Positions 34,337 through 43,283 of a stretch of 64,000 nt of DNA are shown piece after piece (position 1 is the stretch's first letter; each line of letters opens with the position of its first letter). Origin of the DNA: Bradyrhizobium sp. BR13661 (GTDB taxonomy: Bacteria; Pseudomonadota; Alphaproteobacteria; Rhizobiales; Xanthobacteraceae); assembly GCF_029892425.1 (NCBI RefSeq), contig NZ_JARXWB010000030.1, positions 1-64,000 on the forward strand, read 5' to 3'. The translations under genes were made by a program, and so were the position numbers. Under the pieces are notes generated by a model that did no database searches, was not told the origin of the DNA, and saw only the letters and a program-made list of their open reading frames with translations.

Positions 34337-35008
34337 ATGAGAACCCTGATCGGCGCCTTCATCGGCGTGTTGTGCCTCGCCGCCCCCGCCTTCGCGGAGA
34401 CCCCGGCCGCAATCGTCGAGGATGTGCAGGGCAAGGTCGACGGTGTCGAGTTCATGGACTATGTGGCGCCCGGCAAGATCATCAAGCTGGGCCCTAAGGC
34501 CGGCATCACGCTCAGCTATCTGAAATCCTGTCTGCGCGAGACCATCACCGAAGGCGTCGTGCTGGTCGGAGCCGAGCAGAGCACGGTACAGCTCGGCAAC
34601 GTCCAGCGCGTCAAGGTGCCGTGCGATGCCAACGCGGCGCAGCTCTCCGAGCGCGAGGCGAACCAGAGCGCGGCCACCACGTTCCGCACCATGCGCAACG
34701 ACGTCAAGGGCGGCGCGCCGTCGAAGCTGCCGACCATCTACGGCACAGCCCCACTGATCCAGGCCAAGGGCGGCAGCACGCTCACGATCGAGCGCACCGA
34801 CGGCAAAGAACCGACAATCAACGTGCCGCTCAAGAACGACATCATGGTCGGCGGCAAATTCTACGATATGACCAAGACCGGAAAGTCGCTGACGCCAGGC
34901 GGCAGTTATCTCGCGACGCTCGGCGCCAAGCGTTTCGCCTTCCAGGTCGACGCCAGCGCGACCGCATCGCCGACGCCGATTGTCGGCCGTCTGCTGCGAC
35001 TCGAATAG
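34337..35008 (+). CDS. exported protein upstream of the CHASE2 cyclase
   Basis: The ATG at 34337 (GGAAGAG upstream) gives a signal peptide MRTLIGAFIGVLCLAAPAFA followed by a mature domain of about 200 residues. The stretches IVEDVQGKVDGVEFMDYVAP, GKIIKLGPKAGITLSYLKSC and ITEGVVLVGAEQSTVQLGNV suggest a FecR-like beta domain; this is inference. Two cysteines (LKSC, KVPC) could form a disulfide. It lies 19 bases upstream of an adenylate cyclase with an extracytoplasmic CHASE2 sensor, so it may supply or modulate the signal to that sensor. Confidence 0.7.
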   Translation: MRTLIGAFIGVLCLAAPAFAETPAAIVEDVQGKVDGVEFMDYVAPGKIIKLGPKAGITLSYLKSCLRETITEGVVLVGAEQSTVQLGNVQRVKVPCDANAAQLSEREANQSAATTFRTMRNDVKGGAPSKLPTIYGTAPLIQAKGGSTLTIERTDGKEPTINVPLKNDIMVGGKFYDMTKTGKSLTPGGSYLATLGAKRFAFQVDASATASPTPIVGRLLRLE

Positions 35009-35027
35009 AGGACCCGCGACAGCAACG

Positions 35028-37178
35028 ATGCGGCGGATCGGCAGGCGGGACATCGTTGCGGCGATCCTGATTGCGCTCGTTGCGGGCGCCGCCTTCACGT
35101 CGTCGCCGCTCCAAGGCCTGCAAGGTCTCTCGCTCGACATTCTCACGGCCTTGCGCTGGAAGCTGATCGGCGACCACCGCGATCCCGCGACATCGCCGGT
35201 CGTCGTCGTCGCGATCGATGGCGAGACCTACGAAACGCCGCCCTTCAAGGGATCGCCGACCCAGACCTGGACGCGCGAGATCGGCCGGGTGCTCGGCAGC
35301 ATCACCGATGGCGGTGCCAAGGTGATCGGATTCGACGTCATCTTTCCGAGCTCGATCGAGCAATCGGAAATTCCTTTTGGTGACGCCTCATTTGGCAGCC
35401 GCGTCAAGGGATTTGACCGGGACTATCTGATCGCGCTCAGGCGCCTCTCCGACAGCGGCAAGCTGGTGCTTGGCGAAATTCTCAGCAACGACCATTCCGA
35501 CAGGCCCGACCGCGCGCAGCAACTGGTGGTGAAAGGCAACATCCGCGCCCTCAACGTCCACACCGACCCCGACGATGTGATACGGCGGATGCCGCTGAGC
35601 TTTCCCATCGAGGGGCAGGCGGTGCCCACGATGGCCGTCGAGCTCGCAGCCCGCGCCTTGGGCGCAAAGCTCGAGATCGGACCGACCGGGGTGACGAGCC
35701 TGTCCGGCTATGCGATTCCGAGCGCGGTGCCCAATACGCTCACGCTCAACTTCCGCGGCATGGGCCGCGACATCCCGGCCTATTCCTTCGCCGACCTGCG
35801 CGCTTGCGTCGAGAAGAAGGACACCGAGTTCTTCCGCCGCGCCTTCGACGGCAAGATCGTGCTGCTCGGAAGCATCCTCAATTTCGAGGACCGTAAGCTC
35901 AGCTCGATGCATCTGGCCCATGGATATGACGGAACACCGGGGGCGCGATGCGCCCTTCCTGCGCCTGCGAACGCCGAGCAGAAAGCGCGCAGCCAGATCG
36001 CCGGTGTTTTCGTCCATGCCACCGTCGTCCGAAATCTGCTCGAGCATGATGCCGTCACCGAGATCAGCTCTCCGCTGCGGCTGATGCTGACTGTTCTGTT
36101 CGCAGCGATCATCGCTGCTGCCGCTTGCCTGCTGGCGCCCACCGGCGCGGCGATCGCCTGGCTCGGCCTCACCGTCGCCTACGCGGCTGTCGCCATCAGC
36201 ACATTCGCGCATGCCATCGCGCTGCCCTTGACCGAGCCCGCGCTCGCGGGTCTCGCGGCGCTGGGGCTGATGATCGGCTACCGCTTCGTGATCGCCGACC
36301 GCGAGGAGCGCTTCCTGCGCAAGAGCTTTGCGTTCTATCTCGCGCCCGAGGTGATCGAGAGCATGGTCGCCTCCGGCAAGATGCCTGTGCTCGGCGGCGA
36401 GATGCGCAACATCACCATGTTCTTCTCGGACCTCAGCGGCTTCTCCTCGATCGCCGAGAAGATGACGCCGGGCGAGCTGGTCGCATTGATGAACGACTAT
36501 CTCTCCGCCATGACCGACATCATCGAAAGCCACGGCGGCTACGTCGACAAATATATCGGCGATTCCGTCGTCGCGATGTTCGGCGCGCCGGCGGACGATC
36601 CCGATCACGCGCGGCACGCTGTTGCGGCCGCGCTGGAATGTCGCGACCGGCTGGAAGAGCTCAATGAGAATCATCCCGCGTTCCGCGGACGCGGCCTGGC
36701 CCACCGGATCGGGTTGAACAGCGGCGAAGCCGTGGTCGGCAATATCGGCTCGCGCCGCCGCTTCAACTACACGGTCATGAGCGACACTGTGAATCTCGCC
36801 TCGCGGCTCGAAGGCGCCAACAAGTATTTTGGTACGACGATCATGGCGTCGGAGGCGACCGTGAACCAGAGCCGGGACGCCTTCACCTGGCGCGAACTCG
36901 ACACGGTCAGGGTGCAGGGACGCGACGAGCCGATCACCGTGTACGAACCACTCGCCGAAAAGAGCAAGGAGACGCAGGAGCAGGATCTACGCGCAGCGAC
37001 CTACGCCAAGGGCCTTGCATGCTGGCGTGCGCGCGACTTCGCGAAAGCCGCCGAGCTGTTCGAAACTGCCGCCGGCCACGATCAGCCGTCCCGATACTTT
37101 GCCAAGCGGGCGCGGACACTGGCGGCAAGTCCGCCACCGGCGGACTGGACGCCGGTGAACACGCTCGAAGGAAAATAG
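35028..37178 (+). CDS. CHASE2-domain adenylate/guanylate cyclase
   Basis: The 716-residue protein has an N-terminal helix, an extracytoplasmic CHASE2 domain (residues about 30-330: VVVVAIDGETYE, GAKVIGFDVIFPS), three membrane helices (about 350-430) and a class III cyclase domain. The catalytic stretch shows MTMFFSDLSGFSSIAEKMTP with the metal Asp, GGYVDKYIGDSVVAMFGAP with the second Asp, and the NSGEAVVGNIGSRRRFNYTV region. The C terminus has a TPR-like tail. It makes cAMP (or cGMP) from an external signal. The next gene encodes a cyclic-nucleotide-gated channel, a plausible direct receiver. ATG 35028 is chosen 19 bases after the upstream stop. Confidence 0.9.
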   Translation: MRRIGRRDIVAAILIALVAGAAFTSSPLQGLQGLSLDILTALRWKLIGDHRDPATSPVVVVAIDGETYETPPFKGSPTQTWTREIGRVLGSITDGGAKVIGFDVIFPSSIEQSEIPFGDASFGSRVKGFDRDYLIALRRLSDSGKLVLGEILSNDHSDRPDRAQQLVVKGNIRALNVHTDPDDVIRRMPLSFPIEGQAVPTMAVELAARALGAKLEIGPTGVTSLSGYAIPSAVPNTLTLNFRGMGRDIPAYSFADLRACVEKKDTEFFRRAFDGKIVLLGSILNFEDRKLSSMHLAHGYDGTPGARCALPAPANAEQKARSQIAGVFVHATVVRNLLEHDAVTEISSPLRLMLTVLFAAIIAAAACLLAPTGAAIAWLGLTVAYAAVAISTFAHAIALPLTEPALAGLAALGLMIGYRFVIADREERFLRKSFAFYLAPEVIESMVASGKMPVLGGEMRNITMFFSDLSGFSSIAEKMTPGELVALMNDYLSAMTDIIESHGGYVDKYIGDSVVAMFGAPADDPDHARHAVAAALECRDRLEELNENHPAFRGRGLAHRIGLNSGEAVVGNIGSRRRFNYTVMSDTVNLASRLEGANKYFGTTIMASEATVNQSRDAFTWRELDTVRVQGRDEPITVYEPLAEKSKETQEQDLRAATYAKGLACWRARDFAKAAELFETAAGHDQPSRYFAKRARTLAASPPPADWTPVNTLEGK

Positions 37179-37374
37179 AAACCGACGTCGACCGGACGGC
37201 CTTCGGCCCAGCCGAGCCCTACTGAGTGCGTGATGGCGAAGTGGATGCAGCGCGCAATCGTTGACTCAGGTCAATCCCGTTACGCAAGCCCCCCGCTATC
37301 AGGAGAAGTTCGCGGGCTGCCCGCGGAACGTCGAGCTTCGCTTGCCGACTCTGGTCTATCCAGCGTGAACGTCG

Positions 37375-38523
37375 ATGAGATCCGCTTACTGGCCGTCACT
37401 GGGCTCCATCCCCTCCAATGGTCTTGCGACCATTGGGCTGCTCGCGATGATCCTCAACACGGCACCGGCGGCGACGACGGCCCAGCGGCTCCTGTTTTCC
37501 TCGACCGTCATTGCGGTCTCGGCCGCAATGACCGCCATGCTTGCTTTCCACCTCTGGACGGTCCCGGGATGGCGGAAGCGCTTGAGATATATAGCCTCGA
37601 CCGAGGGGATGATTGACCTGGCCTCGGCCTGCGCGCTGCCATTCGGGTGGCTCATCATGCCGGACCCGCAAGATGCCCTGCTCTTTGCTTTGATATGGGC
37701 CCTGCGTTACATCCGCCACGCTTCAGGCCTCGCGCTGTTCTGGCGCGTGATGCATCGCAGTCGCACCGCGCTGCTCAGCATTCTCAGTCTCTTCATTGCG
37801 ATCTTCTTCGTCGCCTCCTCGCTCGCCTACATTTTCGAGCGGCATGCTCAGCCGGACGCGTTCGGCAGCATACCGCGGGCCATGTGGTGGGCCATCGTCA
37901 CCATGACCACAACGGGCTATGGAGACATGTTACCGGTCACGATCTGGGGACGGCTTCTGGCAGGATGGGTCATGGTCGGCGGCGTCGTGATGTTTGCACT
38001 GCAGGCGGGCATCATCGCCGCCGCCTTCGCCGCAGAATTGCAGCGTCGGCACTTTCTCCACATCTGGGACCTGGTCACGCGCGTACCGCTATTCCAGAAG
38101 CTCGGCGCCGCCACCATCGCCGATATCGTACGGCGGCTGGAGATGCGCGACGTCAGCAAGGGCGCCGTCATCGTCCGCAGGGGCGAGCCAGGCGACACCA
38201 TGTATTTCGTCGTTTCAGGGGAAGCTGCCGTGCTGCTTGACTCGACGACCATCACGCTCAATCCCGGAAGCTTCTTCGGCGAAATGGCGCTCTTGTTCGG
38301 TGCCCCCCGCGCGGCGACCGTCGTCGCCACCAAGCCCAGCGTCCTGCTCGTGCTCGATGTTGCGGATTTGCGCGAATTGGCGGCAAGACGGCCGGAGCTC
38401 GTCAATCTCATCGAGGCCGAAGCCCGACGCCGCAAAGATGCCAATGCGACAGGACAAACGCCGCCGTCGCCCCCGTCCAAAGGAACGCCCCGCGAGTTCG
38501 CCGCCGCGCCAACCCCGGACTGA
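37375..38523 (+). CDS. MloK1-like cyclic-nucleotide-gated potassium channel
   Basis: This 382-residue channel aligns with MloK1 of Mesorhizobium, as I remember it, over most of its length. It has about six membrane helices, the selectivity filter TMTTTGYGDMLPV (about residue 182), and a C-terminal cyclic-nucleotide-binding domain with IVRRGEPGDTMYFVVSGEAA, FFGEMALLFGAPRAATVVAT, where the Glu and Arg that bind ribose and phosphate are both present. The S4-like segment (RYIRHASGLALFWRVMHRSR) has few ordered positive charges. It is expected to pass K+ when cAMP binds. The C terminus ends in a Pro-rich tail. It lies about 200 bases after a cyclase gene. Confidence 0.9.
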   Translation: MRSAYWPSLGSIPSNGLATIGLLAMILNTAPAATTAQRLLFSSTVIAVSAAMTAMLAFHLWTVPGWRKRLRYIASTEGMIDLASACALPFGWLIMPDPQDALLFALIWALRYIRHASGLALFWRVMHRSRTALLSILSLFIAIFFVASSLAYIFERHAQPDAFGSIPRAMWWAIVTMTTTGYGDMLPVTIWGRLLAGWVMVGGVVMFALQAGIIAAAFAAELQRRHFLHIWDLVTRVPLFQKLGAATIADIVRRLEMRDVSKGAVIVRRGEPGDTMYFVVSGEAAVLLDSTTITLNPGSFFGEMALLFGAPRAATVVATKPSVLLVLDVADLRELAARRPELVNLIEAEARRRKDANATGQTPPSPPSKGTPREFAAAPTPD

Positions 38524-38619
38524 ATGCCGATCGACGCGCGCCGTTGATGTTCCTCAATGACATCGGATGCTGCTCGAGTCAGATAGACGCTCCGAGAATC
38601 CGGACAGGTGCTCGTTGCC

Positions 38620-40539
38620 ATGGCCGTCGTCACTCGTCGCGTTCAACTGATTGCGCTCATCGGCCTTGCCGTACTGGCGACGCTTACCTGTCCTCGCCTG
38701 GGCGAGGCCGCGCAGACCGACTACGACGACTGCGTCGCGATGCAATACGACCGCGTCAGAACCGAGGCGGAGATCGCGGCCACCATCGCGACCTGCACGC
38801 GCGTGTTGCAGGATCCTTCCGCCTCGGCCGAGCGGCGCGCCTACGCCCTCTATTTCAGGGCCCTCAATCACTTCCTCGAAACGACGCGGCTTTCCCTTGC
38901 CGAGATGAAGCCGATCGGATCGGCCGGCGATGCTGCGCAACGCGAGCTCAAATCCGCGCTTGATGACCTCGCCGCATGCATCGCTGTCGCACCCGCGCCG
39001 CATCCGCAACCCTTCAGCCTCAGGGCGACGATCCATACGGTGCTGGAGCAGTTCGACTTGGCCCTCGACGATCTCGCGCAAGCCATCCGCGCCGATCCGA
39101 AAATCTCCCATCACTTCGTCCAGCGCGCGCTGATCCTGGAGCGGCTCGACCGGTTTTCGGAAGCCCGCGCCGATCTCGACGCAGCCGTCGGGCTCGACCC
39201 CGGAAACCAGAACGCGTGGATCAATCGCGCCATGCTGTGGGCCCGGTATGGTGATGTCGAACGGGCGTTTGCCGATTACGGCCGTGCCGAAGCCGTCGGC
39301 GGCGCCCAGACCTGGCACGCGCTCAGCGGCCGCGCGCGGCTTGCGGTCAGTCGTGGCGATCCCTCGCGCGGCTTTGCCGACTGGACCCGGGCCGCCGAAC
39401 TCACGGTGCTGCCCACGCTGGCCGCGCAATTCCACGTTCGCGCCGGAAATCTGGCGCGCGACTACCTGAAGGATCGCGACAAGGCTCTGCAATCCTACGC
39501 GCGGGCGCTTGCCGTCGCACCATACCACGCGGACGCCCTCATTCAGCGCGGCATGGCCTTCGAACGCGCCGGCCGGCTCGACGATGCGTCAAACGACTAT
39601 CGCAAGGCGGGCGAGATGACCCGCGGCAATCCGCTCGAGAAAGGCATCTACGACTACTCGGTCTTCCGACTGGAGGTGCTGCGCGCACGAGCGGCGCGAA
39701 AGGCGGGCGATCCGCCGCTGCCGCCAAACGTCAATGTCCTGTCCGGCTCGGCCCAGGCTGCCGGCAAGGATCGCGGCCGGCGCATCGCCCTCGTCGTGGG
39801 CAACGCGGCCTATGAGCATGTTCCGGCCCTGATGAACGCCGACCGCGACGCCGAGAGCGTCGGGGCCGCCCTGGGCGAGGCCGGGTTCGCTCGCGTCACG
39901 GTGGCGACCGATCTGGACAGGAGCCAGATGGAAGGCGTGCTGCGGCAGTTTGCCGACGAGGCGGCCGGCGCGGACTGGGCGCTGGTCTACTATGCCGGCC
40001 ATGGCATCGAGATTGACGGGGCCAATTTTGCCATACCGATCGATGCGAGCATAGATACTCTGAGAGAAGCTTCCTCGCACGCAATCTCGATCGATCAGAT
40101 GGTCTCCGCCGTCGAGCGGGCGAAGACTCTTCGCCTGGTCGTTCTCGACGCCTGCCGCGACGATCCGTTCGTGCAGGAGGCGCATCGGGCGGCCGCCAGC
40201 AAGCGAACGTTCAACAAGTCCGCCGATGCCGCGCTTGATCCTCTGATCGCCCGCCGGAAGGAAATCGGGGGAGGCCTCGCCGGCGTACGCCTTGCCCAAT
40301 TGAACACGATCGCGCTGTTCTCCACGCAACCCGGCCAGATCACGCTCGACGGCGACGAACTGAACAGCCCCTTCACGCGGGCGTTCGTGTCGAACATGGC
40401 GACCCCGACCCTCGACCTGCGCCTGTTCTTCGAACGGATTCGCCAGGACGTGTCGAACACCACACAGGGGCGTCAGCGCCCGGCCGTCGACGGGCGCCTC
40501 AGGGAAGGCGAGCAGTTCTTCTTCTTTCCGGCGCGGTGA
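38620..40539 (+). CDS. TPR and caspase-like (peptidase C14) protein
   Basis: The product of 639 residues has a signal-like hydrophobic N terminus (residues 10-28), then TPR-type helical repeats (about 40-370; for example FDLALDDLAQAIRADPKISH and RFSEARADLDAAVGLDPGNQ). A caspase-like domain follows: GRRIALVVGNAAYEHVPAL, the catalytic His in WALVYYAGHGIEIDG and the catalytic Cys in RLVVLDACRDDPF. Both residues of the dyad are present, so it may be an active Cys protease cleaving after basic residues or Asp. A GTG 12 bases upstream is an alternative start. Such proteins (orthocaspase type) are seen in bacterial signalling and defence contexts, but a role here is not shown. Confidence 0.85.
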   Translation: MAVVTRRVQLIALIGLAVLATLTCPRLGEAAQTDYDDCVAMQYDRVRTEAEIAATIATCTRVLQDPSASAERRAYALYFRALNHFLETTRLSLAEMKPIGSAGDAAQRELKSALDDLAACIAVAPAPHPQPFSLRATIHTVLEQFDLALDDLAQAIRADPKISHHFVQRALILERLDRFSEARADLDAAVGLDPGNQNAWINRAMLWARYGDVERAFADYGRAEAVGGAQTWHALSGRARLAVSRGDPSRGFADWTRAAELTVLPTLAAQFHVRAGNLARDYLKDRDKALQSYARALAVAPYHADALIQRGMAFERAGRLDDASNDYRKAGEMTRGNPLEKGIYDYSVFRLEVLRARAARKAGDPPLPPNVNVLSGSAQAAGKDRGRRIALVVGNAAYEHVPALMNADRDAESVGAALGEAGFARVTVATDLDRSQMEGVLRQFADEAAGADWALVYYAGHGIEIDGANFAIPIDASIDTLREASSHAISIDQMVSAVERAKTLRLVVLDACRDDPFVQEAHRAAASKRTFNKSADAALDPLIARRKEIGGGLAGVRLAQLNTIALFSTQPGQITLDGDELNSPFTRAFVSNMATPTLDLRLFFERIRQDVSNTTQGRQRPAVDGRLREGEQFFFFPAR

Positions 40540-40550
40540 CCGGAACCGCT

Positions 40551-41744
<1,194 letters not shown>

Positions 41745-43171: not shown

Positions 43172-43283
43172 GCCCGCCGCTCCATCGCGCAAGATCGGTC
43201 CCCGACATTTGATCCAGATCAAGGCCGAGTAATCGTAACAAATGATACTAATCGATAAAACTGGCTGCAGGGAGCGAAACATC

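Follow-up and report, generated by a model that had tools for sequence, protein, structure and literature searches.

Does a row of three genes in a Bradyrhizobium genome, encoding an exported protein, a CHASE2 cyclase, and an MloK1-like channel, form a relay that carries an external signal through cAMP to K+ flux, as the initial annotation of this DNA proposed? The row lies in a 64,000-nucleotide stretch of Bradyrhizobium sp. BR13661 (contig NZ_JARXWB010000030.1; referred to here as the window), within a genome of 8.94 Mb that encodes 20 class III cyclases and, besides the channel in question, two more MloK1-like channels with 42% and 39% identity. The row itself held up, both in its coordinates and in its key residues: the exported gene does end 19 bp ahead of the cyclase gene, and a further 196 bp separate the cyclase gene from the channel gene on the same strand. 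The features of the region are as follows.

34337 to 35008, plus strand: exported protein of a family without a name, upstream partner of the CHASE2 cyclase (223 aa; hydrophobic N terminus).
35028 to 37178, plus strand: CHASE2-class III (adenylyl-type) cyclase (716 aa; PF05226 and PF00211, key residues present).
37261 to 37274, unstranded: putative FixK/FNR-type box TTGACTCAGGTCAA, 114 bp ahead of the channel ATG (strict box, in 5/5 Bradyrhizobium orthologues).
37375 to 38523, plus strand: MloK1-type cyclic nucleotide-gated K+ channel, as predicted (382 aa; PF00520 and PF00027, MloK1 as best PDB relative).
38544 to 38557, unstranded: second putative FixK/FNR-type box TTGATGTTCCTCAA, 76 bp ahead of position 38620 (strict box, in 4/4 caspase orthologues).
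38608 to 40539, plus strand: exported TPR-caspase (Peptidase_C14, PF00656, E = 1e-33; TPR repeats, hydrophobic N terminus), starting at 38608 or 38620.
37151 to 40539, plus strand: putative exchanged cassette (leader, channel, and caspase), from the cyclase 3' end to the pobA stop (identity step, dS, absence in kin).
40551 to 41723, minus strand: pobA (4-hydroxybenzoate 3-monooxygenase; TIGR02360 above its cutoff), convergent, the right-hand boundary.

The window cyclase matches CHASE2 (PF05226, E = 2e-28) over residues 16 to 363 and Guanylate_cyc (PF00211, E = 4e-26). Hydrophobic segments at residues 4 to 22 and within residues 345 to 423 flank the CHASE2 domain, the layout of a CHASE2 receptor cyclase, which suggests that this domain lies outside the membrane. 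Residues D468, K508, D512, N589, and R593 are identical in all 22 cyclases compared, while position 582 is Thr in 15 (T582 in the window protein) and Ser in 7. We take D468 and D512 to be the two metal Asp residues, K508 and T582 the Lys/Thr substrate pair, and N589 and R593 the Asn/Arg pair; all six residues sought for a class III adenylyl cyclase are therefore present. Among solved structures, the cyclase domain is closest to the adenylate cyclases 6fht and 2w01 and to CyaB (3r5g). Judged by these intact residues, the window cyclase should make cAMP. A comparable system is described in Sinorhizobium meliloti, where the CHASE2 adenylate/guanylate cyclases CyaD1, CyaD2, and CyaK sense with the outer-membrane protein NsrA and likewise combine a CHASE2 sensor and a class III cyclase with an envelope protein (PMC13001267). 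Its output is the regulator Clr, whereas the window cyclase is partnered by an exported protein of a family without a name; a word search of the main text of PMC13001267 returned neither "channel" nor "potassium."

In the channel, an Ion_trans domain and a C-terminal cNMP_binding domain share one 382-aa chain, within the range of about 350 to 400 aa used for MloK1-type channels. The K+ selectivity filter TTTGYGD occupies residues 178 to 184, and the phosphate cassette FFGEMALLFGAPRAATV, including PRAATV, occupies residues 300 to 316. The nucleotide pocket is intact, as first annotated: E303 and R312, presumably the phosphate-cassette Glu and Arg, and R353, presumably the C-helix Arg, are invariant in 11 aligned channel sequences. 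These features argue for a K+ channel of the MloK1 type, which cAMP would open. Its best solved relatives are the MloK1 entries 4chv and 2zd9 (E = 8e-68 and 2e-67). The window channel aligns with MloK1 itself (mll3241 of Mesorhizobium loti) over residues 17 to 359 and has the TTGYGD filter and the FFGEMAL...PR-ATV cassette in common with it; it differs in reading PRAATV, as opposed to PRSATV in MloK1 and in five aligned close orthologues, and in that its gene is preceded by a FixK/FNR-type box. MloK1 is a standard structural model of cyclic nucleotide-modulated channels (PMC5034309). The initial annotation called the physiological role of such channels little known, and no role appeared in the literature consulted; nor did the papers listed include one on the MloK1 gene neighborhood, which is weak evidence of absence.

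The exported protein has one hydrophobic N-terminal segment and, in the window, matched no Pfam, PADLOC, or NCBIfam family. A Pfam search of this protein and six homologues gave nothing beyond two subthreshold chance matches among the 7 proteins, and a profile of 11 homologues found no match in the PDB up to an E value of 10. An AlphaFold2 model built from three sequences reached a pLDDT of 49 and a pTM of 0.36 and was left out of fold searching. A FecR-like fold, suspected from the sequence, found no support in this analysis.

The exported protein has a fixed partner. Among 149 genomes of the family, 21 loci encode orthologues of the window cyclase (53% identity or more), and the exported gene lies directly upstream at 18 of them, with gaps of up to about 290 bp save for one match without the cyclase N-terminal part. 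The other three loci are G076, G011:C4, and G147, two of which are partial matches that start 164 and 201 bp into their contigs. At an E value of 1e-20, the exported protein turns up in 191 of the 242 genomes of the genus. It forms with the CHASE2 cyclase a conserved, fixed pair and a resident unit. In the family sample, this exported family, which has no Pfam or NCBIfam model, partners a CHASE2 cyclase in eight genera. At one locus (G177, L098:4222-6896), a TPR-caspase gene lies directly 3' of the exported gene, with the cyclase missing between them.

The channel is distributed differently. A close orthologue (E = 1e-90) occurs in 5 of 242 genus genomes, namely the window genome, G374, G299, G373, and G177, which speaks against the single exported-cyclase-channel operon of conserved order that the initial annotation had in mind. 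The gene order, offered there as a check, is for the most part not conserved, since the order seen in the window recurs only in G374. Outside the genus there are at least four close channels: those of Rhodopseudomonas pseudopalustris (G141) and Rhodopseudomonas sp. AAP120 (L115), and L118 and L119, which are 62% and 56% identical to the window channel among the matches listed. With these, the close channels at 56% identity or above number nine loci among the matches listed; five of the nine lie less than 3 kb from this cyclase family, in three arrangements. The window and G374 have exported-cyclase-channel-caspase-pobA. G299 and G373 have exported-cyclase-another caspase-channel, with an ATP synthase epsilon-like gene on the opposite strand between the last two, beside PPK2 and CBS genes. 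R. pseudopalustris has channel-CBS-like gene-exported-cyclase.

In the other four close-channel genomes (G177, AAP120, L118, and L119), an orthologue of this cyclase was not found: the best cyclase match is 35% in AAP120 and L119, the L118 genome (1.9 Mb searched) gave no cyclase match at an E value of 1e-40, and the closest cyclase of G177 is a PPK2-type paralogue at 62%. In G177, the caspase follows the exported gene, and the channel adjoins pobA on another contig. The channel is accessory, and the exported-cyclase pair does not need it, because the channel occurs in so few of the genus genomes that keep the exported partner. Nor does the channel need the cyclase, because the G177, AAP120, and L119 genomes keep a close channel without the cyclase orthologue. 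The loci are related by descent, and the linkage counts given here, like the box counts below, overstate independence.

The FixK-type consensus is TTGA-N6-TCAA (PMC5582078, PMC9104804), and a strict match to it stands 87 to 136 bp ahead of the channel start in all five Bradyrhizobium orthologues. A strict box also precedes the window-type caspase in 4/4 orthologues and, in G299, G373, and G221 (3/3), the caspase situated after the cyclase, which brings the caspase genes to 7/7 loci; at all five Bradyrhizobium loci of this channel and all seven of these caspase loci, the genes carry the box looked for in a FixK/FNR regulon. The controls were distinct loci without L118, L119, and duplicates, and the genes other than channels among them had a gap of 80 bp or more. 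In this set, the strict box preceded none of the 142 other MloK1-like channels and 34 of the 1073 genes of other kinds. When leaders were subjected to 4000 dinucleotide shuffles, 0.025% of the shuffles contained a strict box for the window channel leader and up to 1% did so for each 200-bp leader. Outside the boxes, the channel leaders of the window, G299, G373, and G177 align poorly; those of the window and G374 are near-identical and should count once. Across the whole window, a looser box pattern gave no excess (5 found versus 4.1 expected), so the case for the boxes rests on their conservation in relatives.

Several of these boxes have more than one possible client. That of G299 and G373 is flanked by the channel on one side and the divergent ATP synthase epsilon-like gene on the other, and either could be the gene it serves. 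Ahead of the two Rhodopseudomonas channels stands GTGATCCAGATCAA, with one mismatch, 125 and 82 bp from the called start, and a strict site farther upstream that also fronts a divergent gene. In the L118 and L120 channel leaders the box was not found, and the L119 leader has one with a mismatch. As for the exported gene, none of the 16 leaders scanned, window included, contains the strict box. At PPK2 or CBS loci (G299, G373, G177B, G374B, G221, and G005), these leaders carry a one-mismatch palindrome; at seven pobA loci, six have no box and that of G155 has a one-mismatch, nonpalindromic site; and the leaders of G177A, G141, and G134 have no box. In G299 and G373, the pair, the caspase, and the channel may therefore be under shared control, whereas in the window only the channel and the caspase may be.

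The conserved box suggests that a low-oxygen promoter separate from that of the pair probably drives the window channel. A FnrL/FixK-like regulator gene (L004), with best scores below the curated cutoffs, is present in the same genome. Of all the results, this conserved putative low-oxygen box is the one that is new and lends itself best to testing. The FixK2 regulon of B. diazoefficiens uses the box TTG(A/C)-N6-(T/G)CAA and has a CBS-domain gene among its listed targets (PMC5582078, PMC9104804); it resembles the present loci in box type, and CBS genes also lie in the G299/G373 islands. Word searches of the main texts returned no caspase, cyclase, channel, or potassium in PMC9104804 and no caspase, adenylate cyclase, or ion channel in PMC5582078.

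Not only regulation but also descent appears to set the channel and caspase apart from the pair. Between the window and G374, DNA identity is 63 to 87% in the cyclase, about 92% from the last cyclase bases through the caspase, and about 85% in pobA. The corresponding dS values are 0.22 for the channel and 0.23 for the caspase, compared to 0.59 for pobA, 0.63 for the exported gene, and 0.79 for the cyclase. Fourfold-site differences of 0.16 and 0.15 for channel and caspase compare with 0.22 for gyrB, 0.34 for pobA, and 0.41 for an HD-GYP fragment. A gyrB tree built from 30 genomes places the window beside the channel-less G086, G357, and G228 (support 96/93) and G374 beside the channel-less G194 and G155 (support 91/95). 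On the basis of the identity step, the low dS and fourfold-site differences, and this grouping, the channel and caspase behave as a cassette exchanged between lineages. The cassette is absent between cyclase and pobA in all five channel-less kin inspected: these genes are spaced by 3 to 29 bp in G367, G228, G357, and G194, and G155 has another gene between them. Because dN/dS is 0.19 for the channel and 0.14 for the caspase, both genes are under purifying selection and hence kept. Window-type caspase orthologues (E = 1e-150) occur in 4 of 242 genus genomes, all among the five that have the channel. Rhizobia such as B. japonicum are described as rich in metacaspases (PMC3501461). In G221, the cyclase is followed by a tandem pair of caspase-like genes (L112:2-2158).

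Beyond this locus, a general rule that MloK1-like channels lie beside cyclases was considered and rejected. Of 146 distinct other MloK1-like loci (150 loci minus two duplicates and L118 and L119), a class III cyclase domain lies no more than 5 kb away in six, all of which belong to one separate system. About 2.9 would be expected from the density in the window's own genome (20 cyclases in 8.94 Mb, applied to 1316 kb of flank), a figure close to the six observed. This system, referred to here as group II (L101, L102, L239, L241, L250, and L254), combines a CHASE2 cyclase and an MloK1-like channel at 6 loci in five genera. Its cyclase is 26 to 30% identical to the window cyclase over full length and 35 to 36% over about 418 positions in L102. 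In most of the loci there are also secretion genes upstream (in L254, Pfam identifies ABC and HlyD), together with genes for an MBL-fold hydrolase and for small proteins that have a nucleotide-binding domain. The channel directly follows the cyclase on the same strand, at 0 to 94 bp, in three loci and lies on the other strand, 2.6 to 3.5 kb away, in the other three. A joined cyclase-channel query of 397 genomes of the order, with two candidates scored per genome, returned mostly cyclases and informs on channel adjacency only for the 30 loci read; none of these 30 best group II-type cyclases has a channel in its flank of about 1.5 kb, some flanks being shorter. The pairing of a CHASE2 cyclase with a channel is thus found in two unlike settings and is a minority arrangement in both. 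The group II block supports cyclase-channel coupling, and the island is itself a candidate cAMP signaling block in five genera.

With somewhat less than even confidence, we favor a resident sensor pair joined by an accessory low-oxygen effector cassette, in which cAMP from the cyclase opens the channel. The CHASE2 adenylyl cyclase and its exported partner would read a signal from the envelope or outside and make cAMP, while the channel and the exported caspase-like protein would probably each be induced at low oxygen through a FixK/FNR-type box of their own. Binding of cAMP to the nucleotide domain would open the channel, and K+ flow would bring the membrane potential closer to the K+ equilibrium; oxygen would then set whether the channel is made and cAMP whether it opens. 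The neighboring cyclase may help to supply this cAMP; counting against a dedicated coupling, any of the genome's 20 class III cyclases could feed the channel. A bolder version, which we consider doubtful, is an electrical-response module of rhizobia and their relatives, induced by low oxygen, in which a transferable channel-caspase cassette turns a CHASE2-sensed envelope signal, via cAMP, into a change in potential and a periplasmic caspase response. If that were true, MloK1-type channels would gain a physiological role, and coupling of a CHASE2 cyclase to a cyclic nucleotide-gated channel would have arisen at least twice; if the caspase-like partner belongs to the module, a link between bacterial caspases and oxygen control would follow as well. 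A channel clade that has a conserved low-oxygen-type box and recurs near a sensor cyclase makes the role of the channel directly testable.

The main rival to a sensor pair with an accessory effector cassette is nearly as likely: a shared neighborhood without coupling, in which the low-oxygen cassette moves by recombination and stays near the pair in an island rich in FixK/FNR boxes (CBS, PPK2, and caspase genes). Exchange of the cassette separately from the pair, the patchy presence of channel and caspase, the close channels of genomes in which the cyclase orthologue was not found, and the many boxes of the G299/G373 island all fit such a neighborhood. It accounts less well for a channel within 3 kb of the cyclase at both the pobA site (window, G374) and the CBS/PPK2 site (G299, G373), for its position in R. 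pseudopalustris, where it lies across the pair from that in the window, and for the unrelated second cyclase-channel block of group II. Genomes that keep an unlinked channel without a cyclase orthologue and the two shared boxes pull in opposite directions here.

Cotranscription of all three genes as one operon, dedicated to relaying an external signal to K+ flux, would suit the common strand, the gaps of 19 and 196 bp, and the stretch between cyclase and channel, in which no terminator-like site on the plus strand and, in a simple consensus scan, no sigma-70-like promoter were found. Such an operon is unlikely because the channel has its own conserved box and the exported gene of the window has none; the box is retained, moreover, where no cyclase lies upstream of the channel (G177) and where an opposite-strand gene separates the two (G299, G373), and most of the genus lacks this gene order. 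The relay idea survives in part: intact residues, the pair, recurrent proximity, and the group II block favor it, the gene order and the channel's own box do not, and it is plausible, but not as a conserved operon. Far less probable still is a Pycsar-like defense, in which phage infection would raise a cyclic nucleotide, open the channel, trigger the caspase, and stop growth. Like Pycsar systems, the locus has a class III cyclase and a nucleotide-binding effector, and PADLOC profiles match the cyclase domain (PycC, E = 2e-29), the nucleotide-binding part of the channel (PycTIR, E = 2e-18), and, weakly, the caspase (E = 2e-4). However, these matches are confined to the cyclase and nucleotide-binding domains, at domain level, and do not amount to a PycC cyclase with a PycTIR or PycTM effector; the window cyclase has a CHASE2 sensor and Lys508/Thr582, its effector is a K+ channel, and its exported partner is spread through most of the genus.

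Two further sets of boxes were seen near these genes. In the window, the box TTGATCCAGATCAA (43209 to 43222) lies close to where an HpaR/MarR-like gene and a neighbor divergent from it start, and a box is found at the corresponding place in G177 (L097, between 9810 and 9935). At L096, L099, L103, L108, L112, and L236, a PPK2 gene and the exported-cyclase pair are transcribed divergently from an interval that holds one near-FixK palindrome, and further nearby genes have boxes, giving the appearance of a low-oxygen island.
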